Shown piece by piece: positions 3,015 through 12,761 of a DNA stretch of 16,379 bases. Position numbers and translations under genes: made by a program. Each line of letters starts with the position of its first letter. Position 1 is the stretch's first letter. The notes beneath the pieces are model-generated. The model made no database searches. It saw nothing but the letters and a program-made list of their open reading frames with translations, and had not been told where the DNA came from. Location of the stretch: positions 1 to 16,379 of the forward strand of contig JAOAGA010000037.1 in the NCBI GenBank assembly GCA_026415985.1. The letters are read 5' to 3'. The stretch comes from Pseudomonadota bacterium. Its GTDB lineage: Bacteria; CALINM01.

Positions 3015-3770
3015 ATGCAGATAGTAAATAAGCCCGATTATTCTTATATTATGCCCGACAGGTTTTTTTCAGACTTGAGAGTGTTTTTTCTTTCCAAAAA
3101 TTTAGGTATATCTGTGGATAATAGCCAGAAAGATTATCCTTCTCCGCCAGATATGAATATTATCAATAAGATTTCTTCTTATTTTCCTGTTAATCCGAAA
3201 CATATTATTTTTATGAATCAGGTTCACAGCGATATGGTCATAATAAAGGCTGACAAAAGACCTTCTTTTCCACAGGCTGATGGTATTATTACCCAGATGA
3301 AAGGACTTGCCCTTGCGGTAAAGTCTGCCGATTGTTTGCCAATCTTTCTTTTTGATAACAAAAATAAGGTTATCTCTGCCATACACTCAGGATGGAGAGG
3401 TACCGCTTTAAAAATTGTAAAAAAGGCTCTTAAAAAGTTTGAGCAGGAGTTTAATAGTAATTTTTCTGATATTTATGTATTTATAGGTCCCGCTATAAAC
3501 GGCAGTTGCTATGAAATTGGTAAAGATGTATATCAGCACTTTGGGTTTTTAGGTAAAAAGAGGGCCGATTATTTTAATAGGGCAAAAAATAACAAATTTT
3601 ATATGGATCTGAAGGGGATAAATGCCTATATACTTGAACAGGAAGGTATTCCTCCTGAGAATATTGAGATCTGTGATTTATGTACCCATTGTGAGTCTGC
3701 GTTGTTCCATTCTTACAGAAGAGACGGAGTTAATGCGGGCAGAAATATTAGTTTTATAATACTTGCTTAA
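3015..3770 (+). CDS. pgeF: PgeF/YfiH-family purine nucleoside phosphorylase (former laccase-domain protein)
   Basis: Member of the YfiH/PgeF (DUF152) family: Zn-dependent enzymes described as purine nucleoside phosphorylase/adenosine deaminase and linked to peptidoglycan precursor editing. At 251 aa it has the normal length. The expected metal and catalytic residues are present: His71 in NQVHSD, Cys107 in SADCLPI and His124 in IHSGWRGT. The GPAINGSCYEIG segment and the C-terminal CTHCESALFHSYRRDG are also typical. There is no signal peptide, so it is cytoplasmic. It is the last gene of the htrA-rluD cluster, one base after rluD. Its stop overlaps the stop of the convergent mqnA by 4 bp, leaving no room for a separate terminator. 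Older annotation may call it multicopper polyphenol oxidase; the name laccase is misleading. Confidence 0.93.
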   Translation: MQIVNKPDYSYIMPDRFFSDLRVFFLSKNLGISVDNSQKDYPSPPDMNIINKISSYFPVNPKHIIFMNQVHSDMVIIKADKRPSFPQADGIITQMKGLALAVKSADCLPIFLFDNKNKVISAIHSGWRGTALKIVKKALKKFEQEFNSNFSDIYVFIGPAINGSCYEIGKDVYQHFGFLGKKRADYFNRAKNNKFYMDLKGINAYILEQEGIPPENIEICDLCTHCESALFHSYRRDGVNAGRNISFIILA

Positions 3771-4576
3771 TCAAAAAAAAGTATCTCTGGTTCTTTCTCA
3801 ATCAGATCATTTTTCTTTAAAAGTTTGAAAAAAAGTCTAAGACTCTCCATGTGTGTTTCGTTTAGATCAAAGGTAAGATGCTCCCAATAATCAAGTATGT
3901 ATTTGCTATCAAAACCCATCTTTTCTGAGAAACTATCTGCTATAAACCTTTTGTTATTAATGAAAAATTCATATGATAACCTTAATATTTTTTCGAAGGA
4001 TTTTATTTCATTAATTTTATTGGTGTTTTTTGAAACCTGCCAAAGGGCAAAGGTAAAAGGAAGGTTTGTAAAGTTATGCCAGACCTCAGCCAAATCGTAT
4101 TTATAGGTACCGGGATAATCCAGATTTTTTAATGCATAATCTCCTATATACAAGATACCATCTCCCCTTGATAGTAGTTCTTTTAAATTTTCTCCTTCCG
4201 GGTCAAAGGTAAGAAAATCTGCCTTTGTTGGTATAAACTCTTTTAGTATTAGTTTTAATAACATAAGAGAGGTTTTAGAATGGGCGGTTATGAAAAATAA
4301 CCCCTTCTTAATCTCATTCAGTTCTTTTTTTGTAACAAGAACAATGCTTTTCACCTCTTTTTTTGAGGAAATTGAAAAATTTCGTAATATTTTATGACCC
4401 TTTGTTATCTCAAAGGAAGATGAAGGAGAGATATCCAGATCGCCTTTTTCAAGAAGTTTATTCAGATAGGAAGGGGGTCCTTCAATAATCTCACCTGCAA
4501 AGGGAACCAGCTTAAGAATTAGTGCACCATGAACAGGCAGACAATTTAAATAGTTTATATGTCCTAATCTAACCAT
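3767..4576 (-). CDS. mqnA: MqnA-type chorismate dehydratase, futalosine menaquinone pathway
   Basis: MqnA dehydrates chorismate to 3-enolpyruvoyl-benzoate, the first committed step of the futalosine route to menaquinone. The 269-aa protein opens with the family signature RLGHINYLNCLPV and carries DISPSSSFEI and GILYIGDYAL, as expected for the two-lobed periplasmic-binding-protein fold of MqnA/MqnD. The start near the fold's first strand and the residue pattern favour MqnA over MqnD. It has no signal peptide and is cytoplasmic. Its start overlaps the end of the upstream DUF554 gene by 13 bp, so the two are probably cotranscribed. It lies near a large quinone-reactive respiratory operon (5999-12761), which fits an organism using menaquinone. 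No other mqn genes are in the window. Confidence 0.88.
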   Translation of the reverse strand: MVRLGHINYLNCLPVHGALILKLVPFAGEIIEGPPSYLNKLLEKGDLDISPSSSFEITKGHKILRNFSISSKKEVKSIVLVTKKELNEIKKGLFFITAHSKTSLMLLKLILKEFIPTKADFLTFDPEGENLKELLSRGDGILYIGDYALKNLDYPGTYKYDLAEVWHNFTNLPFTFALWQVSKNTNKINEIKSFEKILRLSYEFFINNKRFIADSFSEKMGFDSKYILDYWEHLTFDLNETHMESLRLFFKLLKKNDLIEKEPEILFFD

Positions 4577-5232
4577 AAGGAAAAAATCGGCAAAAATACT
4601 AAAGAAGGTAGCATATCGAGAGTTTTTATATTCTTTATCTTTAAAAGATTAAATCCCAGTGAAAGAACAATTATTCCGCCAACACCGTCAAGGTTAGAGA
4701 TAAAGGACTGAGAAAGCCCCGCCAAATACCCTGAAGATATTGTAATTGTTCCCTGAACAACAAGAACTGTTAAAGAGGAAAAGGCTACCGGTATTCCATA
4801 TCTTGAAGATAAAACAAAAGATGCAAAGCCATCCATTACAGATTTAATTTTTATCAGTGTGGCGTCATTATATAAACCATCCTTAATAGAACCAATTATA
4901 GTCATGGAACCAACACAAAAAAGAACCGATGCTATTAAAAAACCTTCTATCTTGCCTTCTTTTTTAAAAGATCTTTTTAGTTTTTCAAGGGAAGATGAAA
5001 CCTTAACTTCCAGATCTATTAAAGAACCTGCCAAAGTCCCGATTACGAGGGATAAAACAATTATTATTATATCCTTCCCCGTCAGGGTCATTTTAATGCC
5101 TAAAAAAATTGTTATAAATCCTAAAACATTGAAGACCTTTTCTGTAACTTCATCCTTAATTTTTTTTCCAAAATAAATCCCTGCAAAGGACCCAAGCATA
5201 ACAGTTACTGTGTTGACAAGATAACCTTTCAT
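4564..5232 (-). CDS. DUF554-family integral membrane protein
   Basis: A 222-aa polytopic membrane protein of the DUF554 (YdfK-like) family, whose function is not established, although transport has been suggested. The opening MKGYLVNTVTVMLGSFAGIYFGKKI is characteristic of the family, as are GFITIFLGIKMT and the CVGSMTIIGSIKDGL segment near residues 106-120. I count about six hydrophobic segments. The ATG at 5232 has only a weak Shine-Dalgarno. The gene precedes mqnA on the minus strand with a 13-bp overlap, which is tight enough for coupling. It is divergent from the exported protein at 5333, with about 100 bp between starts for both promoters. A functional link to menaquinone synthesis cannot be claimed from position alone. 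Confidence 0.87.
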   Translation of the reverse strand: MKGYLVNTVTVMLGSFAGIYFGKKIKDEVTEKVFNVLGFITIFLGIKMTLTGKDIIIIVLSLVIGTLAGSLIDLEVKVSSSLEKLKRSFKKEGKIEGFLIASVLFCVGSMTIIGSIKDGLYNDATLIKIKSVMDGFASFVLSSRYGIPVAFSSLTVLVVQGTITISSGYLAGLSQSFISNLDGVGGIIVLSLGFNLLKIKNIKTLDMLPSLVFLPIFSLWLD

Positions 5233-5289: not shown

Positions 5290-5332
5290 ATAGTGAAGTT
5301 TGGAGATCAGCTATTTTAAGAAGGAGAAAAGG

Positions 5333-5920
5333 ATGAGAAAAAATATATTTTTTATAATAATTTTGGTTTTATTTGCAGATATTGTATATGCAAATGAGTG
5401 GAAACCTGTCTCGGGGGAGATGGCTATTGGTTTTCAGGGAATAAGATTTAAAGAATTAGATGAAACCAAACCTCTCCTTGCCATAGAGCTTGGAAGCAGG
5501 AATGTTTATTATGGCTATTCTTTACTACTTGGTTCTGCCAACATTGAGAACAGGATGTTTGAAGTTAATAATACCGTTTACAGTGAAAGTATTGATTATA
5601 TGCCACTGGAGTTTAACATAAAGGGTTATTATCCTATGAAAGACATAGAAATAGGATTAGGCGGCGGGGTTAGTATGAATTATCTTAGTTATATACTAAA
5701 AAATGAGAATGCAGGCATTAATGTTGTTTCAAAGGATAATCTGCTATTTGGTGCTCAGCTGAAAGGAGAGGTTAAAATACTTTTTCCATCTACATCAGGT
5801 GTTGATGCCTTTGTCGCTATAGAATATGTTTATCAGTTTGTAGAAAAAACAAACACCTTTTTAGGTTCTTTGGACTTGAGTAATCAGAGATTTGGAATTA
5901 AGTTAGGCGGAAGATTTTAA
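5333..5920 (+). CDS. Small exported outer-membrane beta-barrel-like protein
   Basis: A 195-aa protein that begins with a clean Sec signal peptide (MRKN, a hydrophobic run, cleavage likely after VYA at residue 20). The mature part alternates polar and hydrophobic residues with many Gly, Tyr and Asn (for example YYGYSLLLGS and GLGGGVSMNYLSY), as in transmembrane beta strands, and ends in phenylalanine (GIKLGGRF), the usual outer-membrane barrel signature. A TTG start at 5300 would add 11 residues ahead of the signal peptide. I chose the ATG at 5333 because AGGAG lies 6 bases before it and the signal peptide then begins at residue 1. It stands alone, with a terminator over its stop codon. It is probably an OmpW/OmpX-sized barrel of unknown role; the family is not recognised. 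Confidence 0.75.
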   Translation: MRKNIFFIIILVLFADIVYANEWKPVSGEMAIGFQGIRFKELDETKPLLAIELGSRNVYYGYSLLLGSANIENRMFEVNNTVYSESIDYMPLEFNIKGYYPMKDIEIGLGGGVSMNYLSYILKNENAGINVVSKDNLLFGAQLKGEVKILFPSTSGVDAFVAIEYVYQFVEKTNTFLGSLDLSNQRFGIKLGGRF

Positions 5921-5998: not shown

Positions 5999-7912
5999 AT
6001 GCTAAACTCTTTAGATATGTTATTTATTTCACTTACTGTTTTAGTTTTTGTTTTTGGGCTAATTTTAAAAGCAACAAGATGGAAAAGAGGTCAGGAGACC
6101 AGCAGATTAGACAATCTCTATGAAAATTTTCTTTCATCTGCAGAGAGGGTTTTTTCCCATAGAGACCTTTTGAGAGAAAAGAAGATGGGTTTTTTTCATG
6201 TTTTCCTGTTCTATCTGTTTGTTATTGCATTAATATTAGTAATAGTTTTTCACATCCCCTTCAGTTTGCCTGCCATTCTCGCCGGAGTTCAGTCTATTAT
6301 CCTTGATTCAATCGCCTTAATAGCCCTTGTAGGTATAGTATATTTTTACTACAGAAGGCTTACAGAGAAAGACAGAGGATTTGATAATAAAAAGGAAGAT
6401 TTTGTCTTACTAATATGGTTATTTTTAATATTTATTACCGGTTTTCTTATGGAAGCAGTCAGGCTTAAAGTTTTCAAAGAAAAGGGCGTCTTTGCTCCTG
6501 CCGGTTTAATGTTTTCTGTATTAATACCATCTAACCAGGAATACTATCCCCTTTTATCTCAGCTTTTTTGGAGAGCCCATCTATTTCTTGTCCTGTCGTT
6601 TATAGCTTTTATACCTTATACAAAAGCCATTCATATTGTTCTTATCCCTTTGAGTTATCTGTTTAAAAACCCTATACCGAAAGGGGCCTACAAACTCTAT
6701 GATCTTGACAACTCAGAAGAGTTTGGGGCAAACAAGATTTCAGATCTTAACTGGAAGGATTTAATGGACCTCGATACCTGCGTTCGTTGCGGAAGATGTC
6801 AGGAGAACTGCCCAGCCTTTCTGACAGAGAAACCTCTCTCACCCAAAAAGGTCATACAAGATTTAAAAACCGTCTTATATAAATCTGATAAAGATTTACA
6901 ATCGCCTCTTATAAATGAAGATATTACTGAAGAGGTCATTTTTTCCTGTACAACCTGTAGAGCATGTATGGAAAACTGTCCCGCTGGTATTGAACATTTG
7001 GACAAGATGATGGAAATAAAAAGATATCTGGTATTAATGGAGGGTTCTATCAGTCCGGAGGCACAGCTTCTGTTCAAAAATTTAGAGAGAAATGGTAATC
7101 CCTGGGGGATGCCTGCCTCAACAAGGGCAGAGTGGGCAAAGGAGCTTGATGTTAAGTTTCTTGCGGAGATTGACGATCCAAAATCAATAGATTTTCTGTT
7201 TTGGCCAGGCTGTGCAGGTGCCTTCGATGACAGATACAGTAAGGTTGTTAAAAAAATAGTAGAGATATTTAACAGGGCAGACTTAAAATTTGCTTTACTC
7301 GGTGAAGAAGAGACCTGTTGCGGAGATCCTGCCCGGAAATTAGGGAACGAATATCTCTATGATATGTTGGCAAGACAAAATATAGAAACTATGAACAATT
7401 ACGGCATCAAGAAGATAGTAACATCATGTCCCCATTGTTTAAATACCCTTAAAAGAGATTATAGCCAGATTGGAGGAAATTACGAAGTGGTTTCCCATTC
7501 CGAGTTTTTATTAAGTCTGCTTAAAGAGGGAAAAATTAATCTAAATAAATCTCTTGAAGGCAAGTTTGTCTATCACGATTCCTGTTATCTTGCAAGATAT
7601 AATGATGTTTATGACGAGCCGAGAGAGGTAATCAAAAAATCGGGACTTAAACTTACTGAGTTTGAGAGAAGAGGGATAAAAGGCTTCTGTTGCGGTGGTG
7701 GCGGGGGAAATATGTTTTTAGAGGAACATTCTCCCCGTATGAACGATACAAGGGTTAAACAGATTTTAGACAGCGGTGAAGGCAAAGACCTTACAGGCAT
7801 AGCAACTGCATGTCCCTTCTGTTTAACTATGATGACCGACGGAACAAAAACATATAACAGAGAAGATATTGTTGTTAAAGATATTGCAGAAATAATTTAT
7901 GAGGCCCTTTAA
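5999..7912 (+). CDS. NarI-like/HdrD-like fusion: membrane heme b domain plus iron-sulfur CCG reductase
   Basis: Predicted membrane-bound electron-transfer protein of 637 aa. Residues 1 to about 225 hold five or so membrane segments with histidines (His67, His85, and others in RAHLF and KAIHIV) suited to heme b, as in NarI/DsrM. Next come two ferredoxin motifs, CVRCGRCQENCP (Cys261-271) and CTTCRACMENCP (Cys317-327). Two CCG modules follow, with CCG at 440 and 564 and with CPHC and CPFC partners, the pattern that holds noncubane [4Fe-4S] clusters in HdrB/HdrD and DsrK. The iron-sulfur part should face the cytoplasm. I chose ATG 5999 over TTG 5993 because GGTGGG lies 6 bases before it. Its stop overlaps the next ATG by one base (TAATG). 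It resembles ETF-linked membrane Fe-S reductases and DsrM+DsrK or HmcE+HmcF fusions; the substrate is unknown. Confidence 0.9.
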   Translation: MLNSLDMLFISLTVLVFVFGLILKATRWKRGQETSRLDNLYENFLSSAERVFSHRDLLREKKMGFFHVFLFYLFVIALILVIVFHIPFSLPAILAGVQSIILDSIALIALVGIVYFYYRRLTEKDRGFDNKKEDFVLLIWLFLIFITGFLMEAVRLKVFKEKGVFAPAGLMFSVLIPSNQEYYPLLSQLFWRAHLFLVLSFIAFIPYTKAIHIVLIPLSYLFKNPIPKGAYKLYDLDNSEEFGANKISDLNWKDLMDLDTCVRCGRCQENCPAFLTEKPLSPKKVIQDLKTVLYKSDKDLQSPLINEDITEEVIFSCTTCRACMENCPAGIEHLDKMMEIKRYLVLMEGSISPEAQLLFKNLERNGNPWGMPASTRAEWAKELDVKFLAEIDDPKSIDFLFWPGCAGAFDDRYSKVVKKIVEIFNRADLKFALLGEEETCCGDPARKLGNEYLYDMLARQNIETMNNYGIKKIVTSCPHCLNTLKRDYSQIGGNYEVVSHSEFLLSLLKEGKINLNKSLEGKFVYHDSCYLARYNDVYDEPREVIKKSGLKLTEFERRGIKGFCCGGGGGNMFLEEHSPRMNDTRVKQILDSGEGKDLTGIATACPFCLTMMTDGTKTYNREDIVVKDIAEIIYEAL

Positions 7913-8823
7913 TGAATAGTGCGAAAAGATACCCCTGGTTTTTTATGTTTCTAACTTTTTTTATTATATTCTTATCTCTGAGCTACAAAAAGGTATATGC
8001 GGTCCAATATAGGGATAAGGACAAGAAATGTATGGAGGAATGCCATTCAAAAGACATACGGTATACCCCCTATGGTTATTTCGGCAACCTCAACTCAATA
8101 AATCTTGATTATGAATCTTTCTTAAAGTCAAAGCACGGTATTTTTGACTGTGTTGACTGCCATTTTGATGTTGAGGGCGGTGAAAAAACTCATTTTGTTA
8201 AGGAACCGTCTATAAAATGTGAATCCTGTCATATTGAGAAAAATAAACGTTCTGAAAGAATCAACAATCTTTTAATGTCTAAAGGAGTTGAGTTTGAAAA
8301 TAAAAAGATTGTCTATAACGATTATGTTGAGAGCCTTCATGGAAAGGCCTATTATAATAAGAAAAAAAATGCACCCTATTGCACAGGCTGTCATAACCCC
8401 CATAACGCTAACTTAAAAAGTCCTGACTCAACCGTTTCATCTAAAAATTTACCGGTGACCTGTGGCAGATGCCATCCAAACGAAGGCTTAAAGGGGGATA
8501 CCTTTCTTAAAAAATTATCCCTTGCAAGAATTAATGGTCATAAAAAGGGAGATTCTTCAGTAGACTATTCAGCAAAAAATTGTATTGGCTGTCATGAAGG
8601 CGAAGCAGTTCACGGCAAAAAGGCTAAAAACCTGAATTGTATGAGCTGTCATAAAAAGACTACTTCATTCCTTTTTTCTGATTTCCATGGTAATAATTTA
8701 TCTGTCTTTGTCTATTTGCTTAACTTCGGTTTTATTTTTGGAGCAATTATTTTTGTAGGCGCAGGTATAGGCTATTTGGCTGGAAAACAAAAGGAGACAA
8801 AAAAAGAAGATGAAAGCCACTAA
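7912..8823 (+). CDS. Membrane-anchored multiheme cytochrome c (6 CxxCH plus 1 CxxxCH)
   Basis: A 303-aa cytochrome with an N-terminal signal sequence or anchor (about residues 8-30, ending VYA), a periplasmic heme domain and a C-terminal membrane helix (about 258-285) followed by a charged cytoplasmic tail. Canonical heme sites are CVDCH (Cys80), CESCH (103), CTGCH (157), CGRCH (184), CIGCH (224) and CMSCH (243). A seventh, unusual site is CMEECH (Cys40-His45), with three residues between the cysteines. Extra histidines in SKHG, SLHGKAY, AVHGKK and DFHG can serve as distal ligands. It likely relays electrons between the membrane modules and a periplasmic partner, like the cytochrome subunits of Dsr, Hmc or Cbc-type complexes. 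Its start overlaps the previous stop (TAATG) and its end overlaps the ferredoxin gene by 14 bp, which implies translational coupling. Confidence 0.9.
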   Translation: MNSAKRYPWFFMFLTFFIIFLSLSYKKVYAVQYRDKDKKCMEECHSKDIRYTPYGYFGNLNSINLDYESFLKSKHGIFDCVDCHFDVEGGEKTHFVKEPSIKCESCHIEKNKRSERINNLLMSKGVEFENKKIVYNDYVESLHGKAYYNKKKNAPYCTGCHNPHNANLKSPDSTVSSKNLPVTCGRCHPNEGLKGDTFLKKLSLARINGHKKGDSSVDYSAKNCIGCHEGEAVHGKKAKNLNCMSCHKKTTSFLFSDFHGNNLSVFVYLLNFGFIFGAIIFVGAGIGYLAGKQKETKKEDESH

Positions 8824-9361
8824 AAGATATGGAATGGTTATTGATTTAACTAAATGTATAGGCTGTCACAGTTGTGAGCTTTCCTGCAAGCTTGAGAATA
8901 AGGTTCCGCTTTCTGTGTGGAGGATGTGGGTAAAGGAAGGTATTAAAGGTCATTATCCTAATGTTACAAAAGTATATTTACCTTTGCTGTGCAATCATTG
9001 TGATAATCCCACCTGTGTTACAGTTTGTCCTGTAAAAGCTTCTATTAAAAGAGAGGATGGGATAGTTATTGTTGATCCTCATAGATGTATCGGTTGCAGG
9101 TACTGTATGGCTGCCTGTCCCTATGGGATGAGGCATATAAATCCTTTGATTGGTATCGTTCAAAAATGTGATTTTTGTCTCCACAGGGTATCGGAAGGAG
9201 AAAAACCTGCCTGTGTTCTGTCTTGCCCGAACGGAGCTATGATATTTGGAGATCTAAACGACAGGTTTAGTGAGATAAGTAAGTTTATAGCAACCCACAG
9301 AGTTACAGTAATTAAAGAAGATACGGGTAATATTCCCTTCTGTCTCTTGTACACATCTTGA
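8810..9361 (+). CDS. PsrB/DsrO/NrfC-like ferredoxin subunit, four [4Fe-4S] clusters, apparent 3' frameshift
   Basis: Electron-transfer subunit of the complex iron-sulfur molybdoenzyme family, linking a catalytic subunit to an NrfD membrane subunit. Four cysteine clusters are complete: CIGCHSCELSC, CNHCDNPTCVTVC, CIGCRYCMAAC and CDFCLHRVSEGEKPACVLSC. There is no signal peptide, so if it is periplasmic it would be carried out with the Tat-exported partner at 10357, as PsrB-type subunits are. The frame as read stops at 9361 after CLLYTS. A different frame across 9336-9398 continues with LDGELADKKGMPG before TAG, which looks like the true tail. The break coincides with a 19-base near-match to the Tn5 mosaic end (9340-9358). 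The true gene probably runs to 9398. The core function is confident; the 3' end is suspect. Confidence 0.88.
   Translation: MKATKRYGMVIDLTKCIGCHSCELSCKLENKVPLSVWRMWVKEGIKGHYPNVTKVYLPLLCNHCDNPTCVTVCPVKASIKREDGIVIVDPHRCIGCRYCMAACPYGMRHINPLIGIVQKCDFCLHRVSEGEKPACVLSCPNGAMIFGDLNDRFSEISKFIATHRVTVIKEDTGNIPFCLLYTS
9340..9358. other. Near-perfect Tn5 mosaic-end (Nextera adapter) sequence inside the ferredoxin gene
   Basis: CTGTCTCTTGTACACATCT matches the 19-bp Tn5 mosaic end CTGTCTCTTATACACATCT at 18 positions; the only difference is G for A at 9349. Read through, it yields the peptide CLLYTS forward and MYKRQ on the reverse strand, both familiar signs of adapter left in assemblies. Removing exactly these 19 bases gives an open frame reading NIPFDGELADKKGMPG then stop. 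Alternatively, one extra base near 9335-9337 is the fault. No transposase, second end or target duplication is visible, so a real Tn5 insertion is unlikely. Confidence 0.7.
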
Positions 9362-9451
9362 TGGTGAGCTGGCAGATAAGAAAGGGATGCCAGGTTAGAT
9401 AATGGTAATTGTTAATGAGATAGGGTTAACGGGCAACAGGAGGAATCTTAA

Positions 9452-10348
9452 ATGGATGTAACATTGCTATATAATGTGCCGATGCAGGAAACCTTTGGGG
9501 TATCGATTGCTATATATTTTTACCTTACAGGATTAAGTGCAGGCTCCTTTATCTTATCTTCTTTAAGATATGTATTTGGCTTTGAAAAGTTTAAACCACT
9601 GGCAAAGCCGGGAGTTGTTCTTGCTGCTGTCTTGCTTGTAATGGCACCTTTGGCATTACTTATCCATTCCGGTCATCCAATGAGGGCATGGCATCTTTTC
9701 GTTTTTATAAACCCCACATCTCCTTTATCCTGGGGATCCTTTTTACTAACAATTTATCCAATTGTCTGCATAATATATGCCTATTTTATGTTTAAAGAAA
9801 ACAACAAGATGGCAAAAATATTAGGTATCATAGGAATACCTTCCGCTATCGCAGTTCATGGTTATACCGGTTTTGTTCTTGCTGTTGCCAAGGCAAGGGC
9901 GGTATGGGCAACACCGATAATGCCTCTTTTATTTCTTGTCTCAGCAATGATATCAGGTATAGCTTTGATGATGATTGTCTGCGCAATACAGGGATACTTT
10001 TTCACAAAGGATAGGAAAATTAATTCTGAACTTCTATTTACTCTTGGAAATATGCTTATCTGGATAATCATATTTGACCTCTTTCTGGTTCTCTGCGATA
10101 TGGTAACTCATTATATGGGACATAAAGAAGGTATTGAAGCAACGATACATATGACAACAGGTTTTTTTGGTTTTACATTCCTGATTATTGAGGTCTTTAT
10201 AGGAAAAATAATACCTATGATAGTTTTTGCAGTTCCGAGATTCAGGAAAAACTGGGTTTATGTGTTGACTGCTATAGTAATTATGATAGGAATTTTTGTT
10301 ATGAGATATAACGTTGTTGTCGGTGGTGAACACATACCATTAGTATAG
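9452..10348 (+). CDS. NrfD/PsrC-family membrane subunit (quinone-reactive)
   Basis: A 298-aa polytopic protein with about eight or nine transmembrane helices, of the NrfD/PsrC/DsrP family that exchanges electrons between quinone and a ferredoxin subunit. Family features include ETFGVSIAIYFYLTGLSAGSF near the start, the HSGHPMRAW and PTSPLSWGSF segments (about residues 72-93), VHGYTGFVLAVAKARAVW (about 130-147), and a C-terminal RYNVVVGGEHIPLV. It has no cytochrome motif. A strong AGGAGG lies 9-10 bases before the ATG at 9452, supporting the start. It lies 53 bp after the likely true end of the ferredoxin gene, the usual partner order (B then C). The quinone is probably menaquinone, given mqnA nearby; that is inference. 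It could be called PsrC, DsrP or HmcC without changing the meaning. Confidence 0.92.
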   Translation: MDVTLLYNVPMQETFGVSIAIYFYLTGLSAGSFILSSLRYVFGFEKFKPLAKPGVVLAAVLLVMAPLALLIHSGHPMRAWHLFVFINPTSPLSWGSFLLTIYPIVCIIYAYFMFKENNKMAKILGIIGIPSAIAVHGYTGFVLAVAKARAVWATPIMPLLFLVSAMISGIALMMIVCAIQGYFFTKDRKINSELLFTLGNMLIWIIIFDLFLVLCDMVTHYMGHKEGIEATIHMTTGFFGFTFLIIEVFIGKIIPMIVFAVPRFRKNWVYVLTAIVIMIGIFVMRYNVVVGGEHIPLV

Positions 10349-10356
10349 AGGATAAT

Positions 10357-12234
10357 ATGGAAATAAAGAGAAGGGATTTTATTAAACTAACAGGGCTTAT
10401 GGGCATAGGGACCATTGTCCCCTTTAATAAAGAAGAAGGCAACCCCTACAATTTATGGAAGCCCCTTGCACCTTCAAGGTTAGAAAAGGCAGAGACAGTT
10501 TGCCCGCTTTGTGACAGCTTTTGTAAACTGGAAATACTTAAAAAAAGAGAAAATATCTTTTCTGTATTTAGCAAAGATAAGAAGGGACTATGCTCAAAGA
10601 TTTTCACATATCATAATATCATCTATAATGAAGGACGTATAAAAACTCCAGTTATTAGAAAAGGAGAAAGAGGAAAGGTAAGCTTTAATCCCGTTGATTA
10701 TGACAGGGCAATTGAGATTTTAAAGGAAAATTATAAAAAAGATAAATTTTATACATTAGCATACACGAAAGGTGAAGCTGACAAATATTTCCTGAACGCC
10801 CTTTCAAAGAGAATAAATTTTTATCCTGAAAGTTTTACCAAGGCTTTGTTGGGGGTTGATAAAGTATATTTTGATATTGAAAATGCCGACTTAATATTGA
10901 ATTTCGGTTCTGACATAGTAAATTCCGGGAATTATTTAGATAAAGCAAATTTTTTGTCCCATTCCGCTAAAAAGATCTTTTCATTTACACCTATGGTTAC
11001 AAAAGGCACAGCATTAGGTGAAAGATGGGTTCCGGTAAGGATAAACGACATACCTTATTTAACCTCCTTAATTGTCAGCGCCCTTAATAAAACTTCCTCA
11101 TTTAATCTTGATGAGCTTGAAAAAAGGTTAGGTTTTAACCGGGCAGATTTCAATGAGCTCATAGCTTTAATCAAAAACTCGAAGAAGATCTCTGTAACCT
11201 TTGGTAATTACCTCGCTGAGACCGAAGAAGGCTTACAGGCACTTTTCTCAGTAATAGATCTTGCCAATGTTTTAAAATCTGTCAATAAAGAAGGGGGGAC
11301 TTTTTTTTATAACTACCCCGTGGGTTCAAAACCCTATAACATTTTTAAGGAAGATGTAAAAAACTTACTCTTATACGATATAGATCCTTTGTTAACTGAC
11401 TATTCTTCAGACCTTAGGGACAGGCTTAAAAATATACCCTTTATAGTCTATATAGGTAGCCACCACTCTGAAATATCAAAATACGCTGATCTCATACTTC
11501 CTTTGAGTTTTTTTGTTGAAAAGGACGAGCTCTACATTAAAAGGGATAAGAAGGGTTTTTCTGCAATAATCTCATCGCCTGCTATAGAAGGAGGTGTAGA
11601 AGCAGTTGAGTTGAGAAAAAAAGAGAATATTGAACTTATTTTCCAGAAAATTCTTAATTATAAAGCACCCTATGGTATAAAAGATATTTCAGAGATTGCA
11701 AAAGAGCTTGAAAATAATCTTCCCAACAGAAAAACTCTGTTAGCGTCGCTGGCAAAAAACTTTAAAATTTCCATGTTGTCTCCCCAGATTAAGAAGGGAA
11801 ATCTTGCTGAGCAGTCAGATGAAACTTCAGTATATCTTTACGAAGATGGCCTCATTGATTTTTCAAACAGGGGTAGCAAATGGGCAGAAGAGGTATCAAA
11901 TTTAAACAGGGCACTAATTAACAGAAAGTTAGCAGAAAAACATAAAATTCAAAACGGTGATATTGTGGAGATAAAGACAGAAACAGGCCAGATAAGGGTT
12001 AAATGCCTTATTTACGAAGGCATAGCAGATAACACCATAGGACTTAAGAGATACAAAGTCCCTGCTGACATTAATCATTATTCTAATAAAAATATTGGTT
12101 TTAAAAGTAAAGATAAAGAGATAGAAAGTATCTGGTGGAAAAACGAAGATATTCCTCTAAATAATATTTTTAAAGCAAAGGGTGAGCTTATACCACAATA
12201 TAGTGGTAAGATCGTATCTATCAAAAAGATTTAA
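10357..12234 (+). CDS. Short Tat-exported molybdopterin-oxidoreductase-fold protein, probable non-canonical or metal-free member
   Basis: A 625-aa member of the molybdopterin oxidoreductase fold, shorter than typical catalytic subunits (700-1000 aa). A twin-arginine signal, KRRDFIK (Arg5-Arg6), sits at the N-terminus, so it is periplasmic. The [4Fe-4S] motif is complete: Cys49, Cys52, Cys56 and Cys79. RIKTPVIRKGERGKVSF and ADLILPLSFFVEKDELY are the usual fold landmarks, and the C-terminal part (about residues 525-590, with RKLAEKHKIQNGDIVEI) is the dinucleotide-binding beta-barrel domain. Beyond those four cysteines, the only other one is near residue 553 in VKCLIYEG, so no Cys or selenocysteine is positioned to bind Mo/W. 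It may bind the metal by Ser or Asp, or carry none, like the ActB subunit of alternative complex III. It follows the NrfD gene by 8 bp and is weakly served by GAGGAT. Confidence 0.85.
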   Translation: MEIKRRDFIKLTGLMGIGTIVPFNKEEGNPYNLWKPLAPSRLEKAETVCPLCDSFCKLEILKKRENIFSVFSKDKKGLCSKIFTYHNIIYNEGRIKTPVIRKGERGKVSFNPVDYDRAIEILKENYKKDKFYTLAYTKGEADKYFLNALSKRINFYPESFTKALLGVDKVYFDIENADLILNFGSDIVNSGNYLDKANFLSHSAKKIFSFTPMVTKGTALGERWVPVRINDIPYLTSLIVSALNKTSSFNLDELEKRLGFNRADFNELIALIKNSKKISVTFGNYLAETEEGLQALFSVIDLANVLKSVNKEGGTFFYNYPVGSKPYNIFKEDVKNLLLYDIDPLLTDYSSDLRDRLKNIPFIVYIGSHHSEISKYADLILPLSFFVEKDELYIKRDKKGFSAIISSPAIEGGVEAVELRKKENIELIFQKILNYKAPYGIKDISEIAKELENNLPNRKTLLASLAKNFKISMLSPQIKKGNLAEQSDETSVYLYEDGLIDFSNRGSKWAEEVSNLNRALINRKLAEKHKIQNGDIVEIKTETGQIRVKCLIYEGIADNTIGLKRYKVPADINHYSNKNIGFKSKDKEIESIWWKNEDIPLNNIFKAKGELIPQYSGKIVSIKKI

Positions 12235-12245
12235 CGGAGCAGGAG

Positions 12246-12761
12246 ATGAATGTTTATAAATATTCGATACTTGTGGTGGTTATAATTATATTAGTTAGTA
12301 TGGGGGTTCTTGTAAAGACGACTACTACATCAAATTTTTATTGCGGGATCTGCCATTTCAAAGAAAAGTCTCTTGTGAAAACTTCATTTGCCCATAATAT
12401 TAAGAACTCAACCTGTGTAGGCTGTCATGACGAGTCAAGCTTTAGCATATCAAAACATTTTAGTAGCAATCCTGAGTTTATTAATAAGAAGTGCGAAGGC
12501 TGTCATGAAAAGGTAAAATCCGAAAAGGAGATAAAAGGTAAAAAAATTATAAAAATGAACCACTTCGCCCATATGGATGGCAAAAAGACTAATATGAAAT
12601 GTCTTGAATGTCATTCAAATGTTGCCCATGACATAAGTAATTATTCAACTAACAGACCATCAATGGTTGGATGTTTTACCGGGGAATGTCATGTGAAGGA
12701 AAAAGATTTGAAAAAATGTGACTACTGCCATTATGTCAAATTTGTTTATCCCGAAAAATAA
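12246..12761 (+). CDS. NapC/NrfH-like small multiheme cytochrome c (5 CxxCH plus 1 CX4CH)
   Basis: A 171-aa cytochrome with a single N-terminal membrane anchor (about residues 6-23) and a periplasmic heme domain. Heme sites are CGICH (Cys33), CVGCH (57), CEGCH (83), CLECH (119), CFTGECH (143, four-residue spacing) and CDYCH (158). CX4CH sites are established in tetraheme cytochromes c3. The anchor, size and first CxxCH just after the membrane resemble NapC/NrfH quinol dehydrogenases, but those usually have four hemes. Free histidines in FAHN, SKHF, NHFAH and VAHD are candidate distal ligands. GGAG (12236-12239) lies 6 bases before the ATG. It is the last gene of the operon, and its stop lies 2 bp from the convergent radical SAM gene. 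It may pass electrons from the complex to a soluble partner, which is inference. Confidence 0.88.
   Translation: MNVYKYSILVVVIIILVSMGVLVKTTTTSNFYCGICHFKEKSLVKTSFAHNIKNSTCVGCHDESSFSISKHFSSNPEFINKKCEGCHEKVKSEKEIKGKKIIKMNHFAHMDGKKTNMKCLECHSNVAHDISNYSTNRPSMVGCFTGECHVKEKDLKKCDYCHYVKFVYPEK

Follow-up and report, generated by a model that had tools for sequence, protein, structure and literature searches.

Which electrons enter the six-gene respiratory operon at positions 5999-12761 of contig JAOAGA010000037.1 (assembly GCA_026415985.1, Pseudomonadota bacterium, GTDB CALINM01), and where do they leave it? The contig, 16,379 nucleotides long and hereafter called the window, belongs as contig 92 to a draft genome of 1.57 Mb and 84% completeness. 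Its host is an uncultured anaerobic bacterium in which the operon appears to provide a route from fatty- or organic-acid breakdown, via electron-transferring flavoprotein (ETF) and menaquinone, to heme proteins outside the inner membrane. A first-pass annotation made from the letters of the window had listed a NarI-HdrD fusion, two multiheme cytochromes, a four-cluster ferredoxin, an NrfD protein and a molybdopterin-fold protein, and our domain searches agree with this set and its place. What we add is an identity for the fusion, which by its sequence belongs to the EtfD/EMO (ETF:menaquinone oxidoreductase) family. On this basis we favor, as a probable reading, an ETF-linked quinone/cytochrome electron-transfer system working outward as a reverse redox loop, for which the six proteins need not form one physical complex. 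The open reading frame (ORF) list gives the genes as follows.

5999-7912, + strand: gene A, EtfD-type NarI-HdrD fusion
7912-8823, + strand: gene B, seven-motif multiheme cytochrome
8810-9361, + strand: gene C, four-cluster ferredoxin
9452-10348, + strand: gene D, NrfD-type membrane protein
10357-12234, + strand: gene E, MopB (molybdopterin-fold) protein
12246-12761, + strand: gene F, six-motif multiheme cytochrome

The stop of A and the start of B share the letters TAATG, B and C overlap by 14 bp, and gaps of 8 and 11 bp separate D from E and E from F. Only the C/D gap, at 90 bp, exceeds an overlap or gap of 14 bp. The six-gene operon is real: the whole A to F order returns in two more genomes, with protein identities of 41-80%, which excludes a chance layout.

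Gene A and the EtfD/EMO Family

The description of gene A as an HdrD/NarI fusion stands as far as architecture goes: domain search found Nitrate_red_gam, Fer4_8 and two CCG domains, so that one chain joins a NarI-like heme b region to two [4Fe-4S] motifs and the CCG pair, and hydropathy gave five transmembrane (TM) helices. However, the fusion is not a generic one, as it aligns over its full length, membrane and soluble parts included, with Mycobacterium smegmatis EtfD (PDB 9ojn_A; 384 bits, E 1.4e-113), its sole strong structural match. Against the DsrK and TmcB models it scores 77 bits (cut-off 400) and 80 bits (cut-off 735), respectively.

In the published EtfD structure, His78 and His241 bind the heme, His583 sits on cluster D2 and Thr539 at cluster D1 (PMC13083937). 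Mapped from EtfD, the axial ligands of heme b in gene A are His67 and His212; clusters D3/D4 are held by Cys261, 264, 267, 271, 317, 320, 323 and 327, cluster D1 by Cys405, 440, 477 and 480, and cluster D2 by Cys529, 564, 565, 605 and 608 together with His479. All 18 cluster cysteines are present, eight for the two cubanes and ten in the CCG domains. The ligand residues, His479 included, are invariant in 75 of 75 EtfDs except Cys480 (59/75) and Cys441 (35/75). Cys441 takes the place of mycobacterial Thr539, and some of the EtfDs with Cys there adjoin etfAB; Thr539, with its linear [3Fe-4S] cluster D1, is a mark of the mycobacterial subtype and not of the whole EtfD/EMO family. In gene A, D1 may possibly be an Hdr-like noncubane [4Fe-4S] cluster instead.

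Among 72 surveyed loci, 27 carry etfA within 6 kb of etfD on the same strand. Gene A is the only full-length EtfD found in its own genome; a second, soluble HdrD-like gene is also present, whose counterpart in the related genome G001 belongs to an AOR/HdrA cluster. Given the structural match, the ligand set, the etfA neighborhood and the single full-length copy, we read gene A as a predicted ETF:menaquinone oxidoreductase. Its cytoplasmic partner is very likely ETF, which for the window species is well supported by the family and by genome G060, described below. Of the role first proposed for the operon, the cytoplasmic electron carrier, menaquinone and periplasmic exchange are retained, and the thiol/disulfide part gives way, as gene A reads as EtfD/EMO. 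Cytochrome-linked EtfDs are easily taken for generic HdrD-like proteins or Fe-S oxidoreductases.

The Cytochromes, Ferredoxin, NrfD and MopB Subunits

Gene B holds six CxxCH motifs and one CX3CH (seven heme motifs), a Cytochrome_C7 match and two TM segments, namely an N-terminal signal/anchor and a C-terminal helix. Gene F, with five CxxCH and one CX4CH (six heme motifs), is NapC/NrfH-like, membrane-anchored by one TM helix, and gives weak Cytochrom_NNT/Cytochrome_C7 matches. Both odd motifs are kept in the relatives. Together B and F total 11 CxxCH, one CX3CH and one CX4CH, and the earlier figure of up to 13 c hemes and 7 cubanes for the operon is exact as a maximum, as all such totals are maxima from motif counts.

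Gene C is a Fer4_11 ferredoxin of the TtrB/DsrO/NrfC-like type whose 16 cysteines correspond to four clusters; it has no signal peptide, its N-terminus starting directly at the ferredoxin fold. Compared with both family relatives it is shortened by one extra base near 9331 (just before 9337), and the wide C/D gap arises because this one-base frame shift ends C early. The conserved C-terminal tail (ADKKGMPE) runs on in the next frame to about 9418, and all cluster cysteines lie upstream of the shift, which is possibly an assembly or adapter error. Positions 9331-9361 hold CTGTCTCTTGTACACATCT, which agrees with the Tn5 mosaic end/Nextera adapter at 18 of 19 letters, a match that arose in none of 200 shuffles. 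An adapter insertion was considered and rejected, since in the alignment the change is a frame shift of one base in place.

Gene D is an NrfD/PsrC-type membrane quinone subunit (PF03916, E 7e-47) with eight TM helices, for which no PDB sequence match was found at E 0.01. The Qrc operon of genome G025 served for comparison: C and D retain the Q-site residues Tyr113 of QrcC (Tyr105 in C) and Ser138 and Tyr150 of QrcD, and QrcD Asp120 corresponds to His72 in D. Judged from these residues, a quinone site near the periplasm in C/D is likely.

For gene E the molybdopterin fold (PF00384, Molybdopterin; PF01568, Molydop_binding) and export by a twin-arginine translocation (Tat) signal stand as first described. 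Its cysteines are restricted to residues 49, 52, 56, 79 and 550, four of them forming one [4Fe-4S] motif; with neither Cys nor Sec between 79 and 550, no Cys is available to coordinate Mo, and E is therefore probably non-catalytic. The Mo-ligand region cannot be aligned with catalytic MopBs, and the MopBs of related modules also lack Cys there. E is about 130 residues shorter than these (735-784 aa), and its rapid divergence would be expected of a subunit freed from catalysis. In the MopB tree it groups with QrcB and ActB at full support, but its branch is long and its exact placement uncertain. An AlphaFold model of E from 3 sequences reached a predicted local distance difference test (pLDDT) of 37, and one from 11 sequences reached 59.7 and matched the folds of FDH-H, Arr, Psr and ActB at TM-scores of about 0.4; this moderate-confidence model supports the MopB fold only.

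In hitchhiker export, as in Psr, a subunit with a Tat signal is exported together with a signal-less partner. The Tat signal on E and the lack of one on C would fit passage of E and C as a pair to the periplasm by this route, and redox sites on both membrane faces, as the first-pass annotation had proposed, are supported.

Conservation and Distribution

The family consists of the window genome and two others in the sample (G001 and G002), the next relatives sharing only the domain with it. Both relatives keep all six genes together in the same order, an outcome in favor of the first-pass annotation; the G001 locus is split, with its E/F end lying on a second contig. Identity to the window proteins is 79-80% for D, 76% for C, 66-70% for A, 62-63% for F, 50% for B and 41-45% for E. 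In the relatives an acyl-CoA dehydrogenase gene adjoins the locus, and G001 has a full beta-oxidation cluster.

G060, the sole sampled genome of its phylum, carries on one strand (L157) genes for an acyl-CoA dehydrogenase, etfB, etfA, a 7-heme cytochrome, a ferredoxin, NrfD, a Tat-exported MopB, a 485-aa protein without a family, a 6-heme cytochrome and etfD. Identity to the window is 56% for the ferredoxin and 42% for EtfD; MopB, the cytochromes and NrfD are distant. In G237, from a phylum with two sampled genomes, EtfD stands beside a 7-heme cytochrome and the rest of the set is absent there. In the EtfD tree (n=75), the cytochrome-linked copies, which come from the window family, from G060 and from G237, form one clade (Shimodaira-Hasegawa-like approximate likelihood ratio test, SH-aLRT, 98). 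By this phylogeny, the cytochrome-linked EtfD lineage spans three sparsely sampled phyla.

The order ferredoxin-NrfD-MopB-multiheme cytochrome, as in C to F, also occurs without EtfD in six other sampled genomes (G033, G044, G189, G152, G290 and G361). In the trees, window D branches with the D of these modules (support 97), and C joins them less firmly. The modules (L158, L160, L162, L163, L164 and L165) come from other phyla and have MopBs without the Mo-ligand Cys, and two of them adjoin Rieske/cytochrome b genes. We found no name for them.

Comparison with Known Systems

No paper describing this combination was found in the literature searched, which consisted mostly of papers outside subscription, and a description may exist elsewhere; the earlier statement that no named complex matches exactly thus agrees with our search. 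Its list of related complexes was incomplete, however, as it omitted both EtfD and Qrc, the closest analogue of the periplasmic half.

With EtfD/EMO, gene A shares the fusion architecture and all cluster and heme ligands, and etfAB adjoins homologues including that of G060. The known EtfDs are described as single proteins, whereas here the gene stands in an operon with NrfD, MopB, a ferredoxin and two multiheme cytochromes, and Cys441 replaces Thr539. QrcABCD resembles the remainder in its periplasm-facing set of Mo-free MopB, ferredoxin, NrfD and multiheme cytochrome, and in the kept Q-site residues. It has a single QrcA, a hexaheme protein, and lacks EtfD; E, in turn, retains a four-Cys iron-sulfur motif, and Asp70 and Tyr110 of the QrcD proton path are absent here. 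Membership in Qrc was rejected, as all models score under their cut-offs (QrcB 66.8/440, QrcC 116/400, QrcD 61.7/570 bits). Alternative complex III likewise combines a non-catalytic MopB, a ferredoxin, NrfD and a multiheme cytochrome, working from quinol to cytochrome c. Yet its ActB is a MopB-ferredoxin fusion, it has two NrfD subunits (ActC and ActF) and no EtfD; with MopB and ferredoxin as separate genes and one NrfD in the window, membership was rejected here too. The EtfD-less modules have the gene order of C to F, but no EtfD and full-length MopBs.

DsrMKJOP, Hmc and Tmc have HdrD-like, NarI-like, NrfD-type, ferredoxin and cytochrome parts, but there the HdrD-like and NarI-like parts are separate genes, MopB is missing, and Dsr works with DsrC or thiol chemistry. 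Besides the DsrK score above, DsrO (195/200 bits), DsrP (77/350 bits), the fusion in A and the missing Tat signal of C speak against a DsrMKJOP identity, and besides TmcB, HmcF (52/750 bits) and HmcA (30/400 bits) speak against Hmc/Tmc. A catalytic complex iron-sulfur molybdoenzyme (CISM) of the PsrABC/Phs/Ttr kind was rejected, as E has no Mo-coordinating Cys. We suggest that B to F work most like Qrc or alternative complex III; the operon as a whole puts known modules in a new arrangement.

Syntrophus aciditrophicus offers an analogy of function, in which EMO and a membrane formate dehydrogenase form a reverse redox loop (PMC8805022). Shared with it would be a cytoplasmic EMO and a periplasmic quinol-oxidizing partner working at opposite faces of the membrane; here, however, that partner would be the NrfD/MopB module of the operon itself, which delivers to cytochromes, in place of a formate dehydrogenase.

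Donors and Acceptors in the Cell

The window genome has a single etfBA, beside genes recognized by eye as propionyl-CoA carboxylase and methylmalonyl-CoA mutase, as well as complex I genes (also by eye) and a TtrA-like molybdoenzyme. Its EtfA (L095 8463-9650) carries a 2x[4Fe-4S] ferredoxin domain at the N-terminus and differs in this from the G060 protein. No COX1 (heme-copper oxidase) was found in the three family genomes (84-92% complete). Many multiheme cytochromes are encoded, including 21-heme and 10-heme proteins, so electrons reaching the periplasm would have cytochrome acceptors.

A decaheme, lipoprotein-like cytochrome lies beside a 594- or 625-aa exported protein with no Pfam match and a terminal aromatic residue (L266 3333-6068; L271 3638-6523). 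The pair of the window genome (594 aa), kept in G002, is a candidate porin-cytochrome conduit. G002 also has, at L271 13654-18984, a 1776-aa ORF with 42 c-type heme motifs.

Proposed Electron Path and Alternatives

In the path we propose, acyl-CoA dehydrogenases would reduce ETF, and EtfD (A) would accept its electrons on the cytoplasmic side and pass them through the CCG clusters, the two cubanes and heme b on to menaquinone. NrfD (D) with the periplasmic ferredoxin (C), the MopB scaffold (E, with one iron-sulfur cluster) and cytochromes B and F would then oxidize menaquinol at the periplasmic face and deliver electrons onward to the large multiheme cytochrome pool of the cell. The ETF/acyl-CoA couple, at about -10 mV, lies above menaquinone in potential, and for this reason the two halves would jointly form a reverse redox loop that spends membrane potential, the NrfD module replacing the membrane formate dehydrogenase of Syntrophus. 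We infer the outward direction, which is likely once ETF is taken as the partner, and also the proton stoichiometry. That A to F make up one physical complex is somewhat doubtful, and the full version of that idea, a single ETF:cytochrome c oxidoreductase that spans the membrane and links acyl-CoA oxidation directly to periplasmic and extracellular electron transfer at the expense of membrane potential, strikes us as rather unlikely.

Several observations weigh against the outward ETF-linked system. The QrcD proton-path residues Asp70 (Tyr22 in D) and Tyr110 are replaced. The etfBA of the window genome lies on another contig, and the link to ETF comes from the family and G060, not from neighborhood. 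The G060 NrfD shares only 28% identity with D and falls in a different subfamily, and the G060 MopB has another place in its tree; as neither is the closest relative of its window counterpart, the set may have been assembled twice, or the NrfD and MopB subunits may have been exchanged. The cross-phylum synteny may then be one of component types and not of orthologues of all six. Finally, the six-component set was found in only 4 of 386 sampled genomes, namely those of the window, G001, G002 and G060.

The same electron path would also serve two complexes sharing one operon, EtfD alone and a separate C-D-E-F (with B) menaquinol:cytochrome c oxidoreductase, linked by the quinone pool. This arrangement, which competes only with the single-complex version (the likelihoods given here for the alternatives are not mutually exclusive), we hold to be a little short of an even chance. 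It draws on the solution of mycobacterial EtfD as a single protein (PMC13083937), on the six genomes with EtfD-less modules and on the fact that EtfD mostly occurs without such modules; set against it, the cytochrome-linked EtfDs form a clade of their own, and the lone EtfD and 7-heme cytochrome of G237 suggest a specific EtfD-cytochrome partnership. The direction could be the opposite one, with periplasmic donors feeding the NrfD module, menaquinone, EtfD and ETF for enoyl-CoA reduction while proton motive force is built. Qrc, the closest characterized analogue, does run from periplasm to menaquinone (PMC13059093), enoyl-CoA respiration through EMO has been described in Syntrophus (PMC8805022), and the Q-site residues are compatible with either direction; yet the relatives with oxidative beta-oxidation and liv-type uptake clusters, and the many multiheme cytochromes with the conduit-like decaheme/594-aa pair that suit electron export, suggest otherwise, and we think this reversal unlikely.

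Less probable still is a DsrMKJOP/Hmc/Tmc-like complex with an extra MopB, whose HdrD-like part would reduce a cytoplasmic thiol/disulfide or DsrC. The common parts and Cys441, which is found in catalytic Hdr where mycobacterial EtfD has Thr, lend it something. However, the DsrK, HmcF and TmcB models are far under cut-off, the D2 ligand His479 that makes EtfD non-catalytic is present in all 75 EtfDs, Cys441 also occurs in EtfDs whose genes adjoin etfAB, and C is without the Tat signal that DsrO carries. Very unlikely, finally, is E as an active molybdoenzyme, with the operon a terminal reductase or dehydrogenase for an unnamed substrate: the MopB fold, Tat signal and iron-sulfur motif would suit it, but the stretch free of Cys and Sec, the Mo-ligand region that does not align with catalytic members, the shortened chain and an identity among relatives far below that of D all argue the other way.

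If the outward ETF-linked system holds, it bears on a central problem of anaerobic fatty- and aromatic-acid oxidation and of syntrophy, namely how acyl-CoA dehydrogenase electrons reach low-potential or extracellular acceptors. EMO with membrane formate dehydrogenase in Syntrophus is one answer, and the operon points to a second, in which the periplasmic partner is encoded beside EtfD. It also defines a cytochrome-linked EtfD clade, and since in G060 the donor genes belong to one strand run with the rest, the acyl-CoA-to-multiheme-cytochrome route is testable there as one unit. Were all six proteins one complex, it would be a self-contained reverse-electron-transfer machine for beta-oxidation, with extracellular transfer via outer-membrane cytochromes.

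Neighboring Genes and Other Loci

One further gene lies directly upstream of gene A, as seen from profile search, synteny and features by eye.

5300-5920, + strand: g0, exported protein of ~195-206 aa, no family

It is syntenic and 42% identical in both family relatives, and the operon probably starts one gene earlier, with g0 as its first gene. Profile search gave no Pfam match; by eye, g0 has an N-terminal signal-like stretch and a C-terminal aromatic residue and may possibly be a small outer-membrane barrel. The 485-aa protein of G060 was considered as a g0-like barrel and rejected, as by eye it resembles a beta-propeller with a zinc-ribbon end instead. Divergent from the operon, at 3767-5232 on the minus strand, lie mqnA (PF02621, E 3e-53; futalosine menaquinone pathway) and a DUF554 gene, both syntenic in the two relatives; the neighboring mqnA counts in favor of the proposed path.

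Elsewhere in the window genome, a second NrfD module contains a gene above cut-off for the DsrP model (L036 7176-8768), which in G002 stands with an Fe-S protein and 4- and 18-heme cytochromes (L272 3369-8391). The DsrP-like gene of the window genome (C126) was rejected as evidence of a Dsr operon, being probably part of another NrfD module to judge from the neighbors of its G002 homologue. In G001, genes for an AOR-type oxidoreductase, a ferredoxin and HdrA-like and HdrD-like proteins lie in a row (L097 1700-8881 and L096 3-1124), the HdrD-like gene being the one also present in the window genome, and the row is reminiscent of a class II benzoyl-CoA reductase or an AOR-Hdr system.

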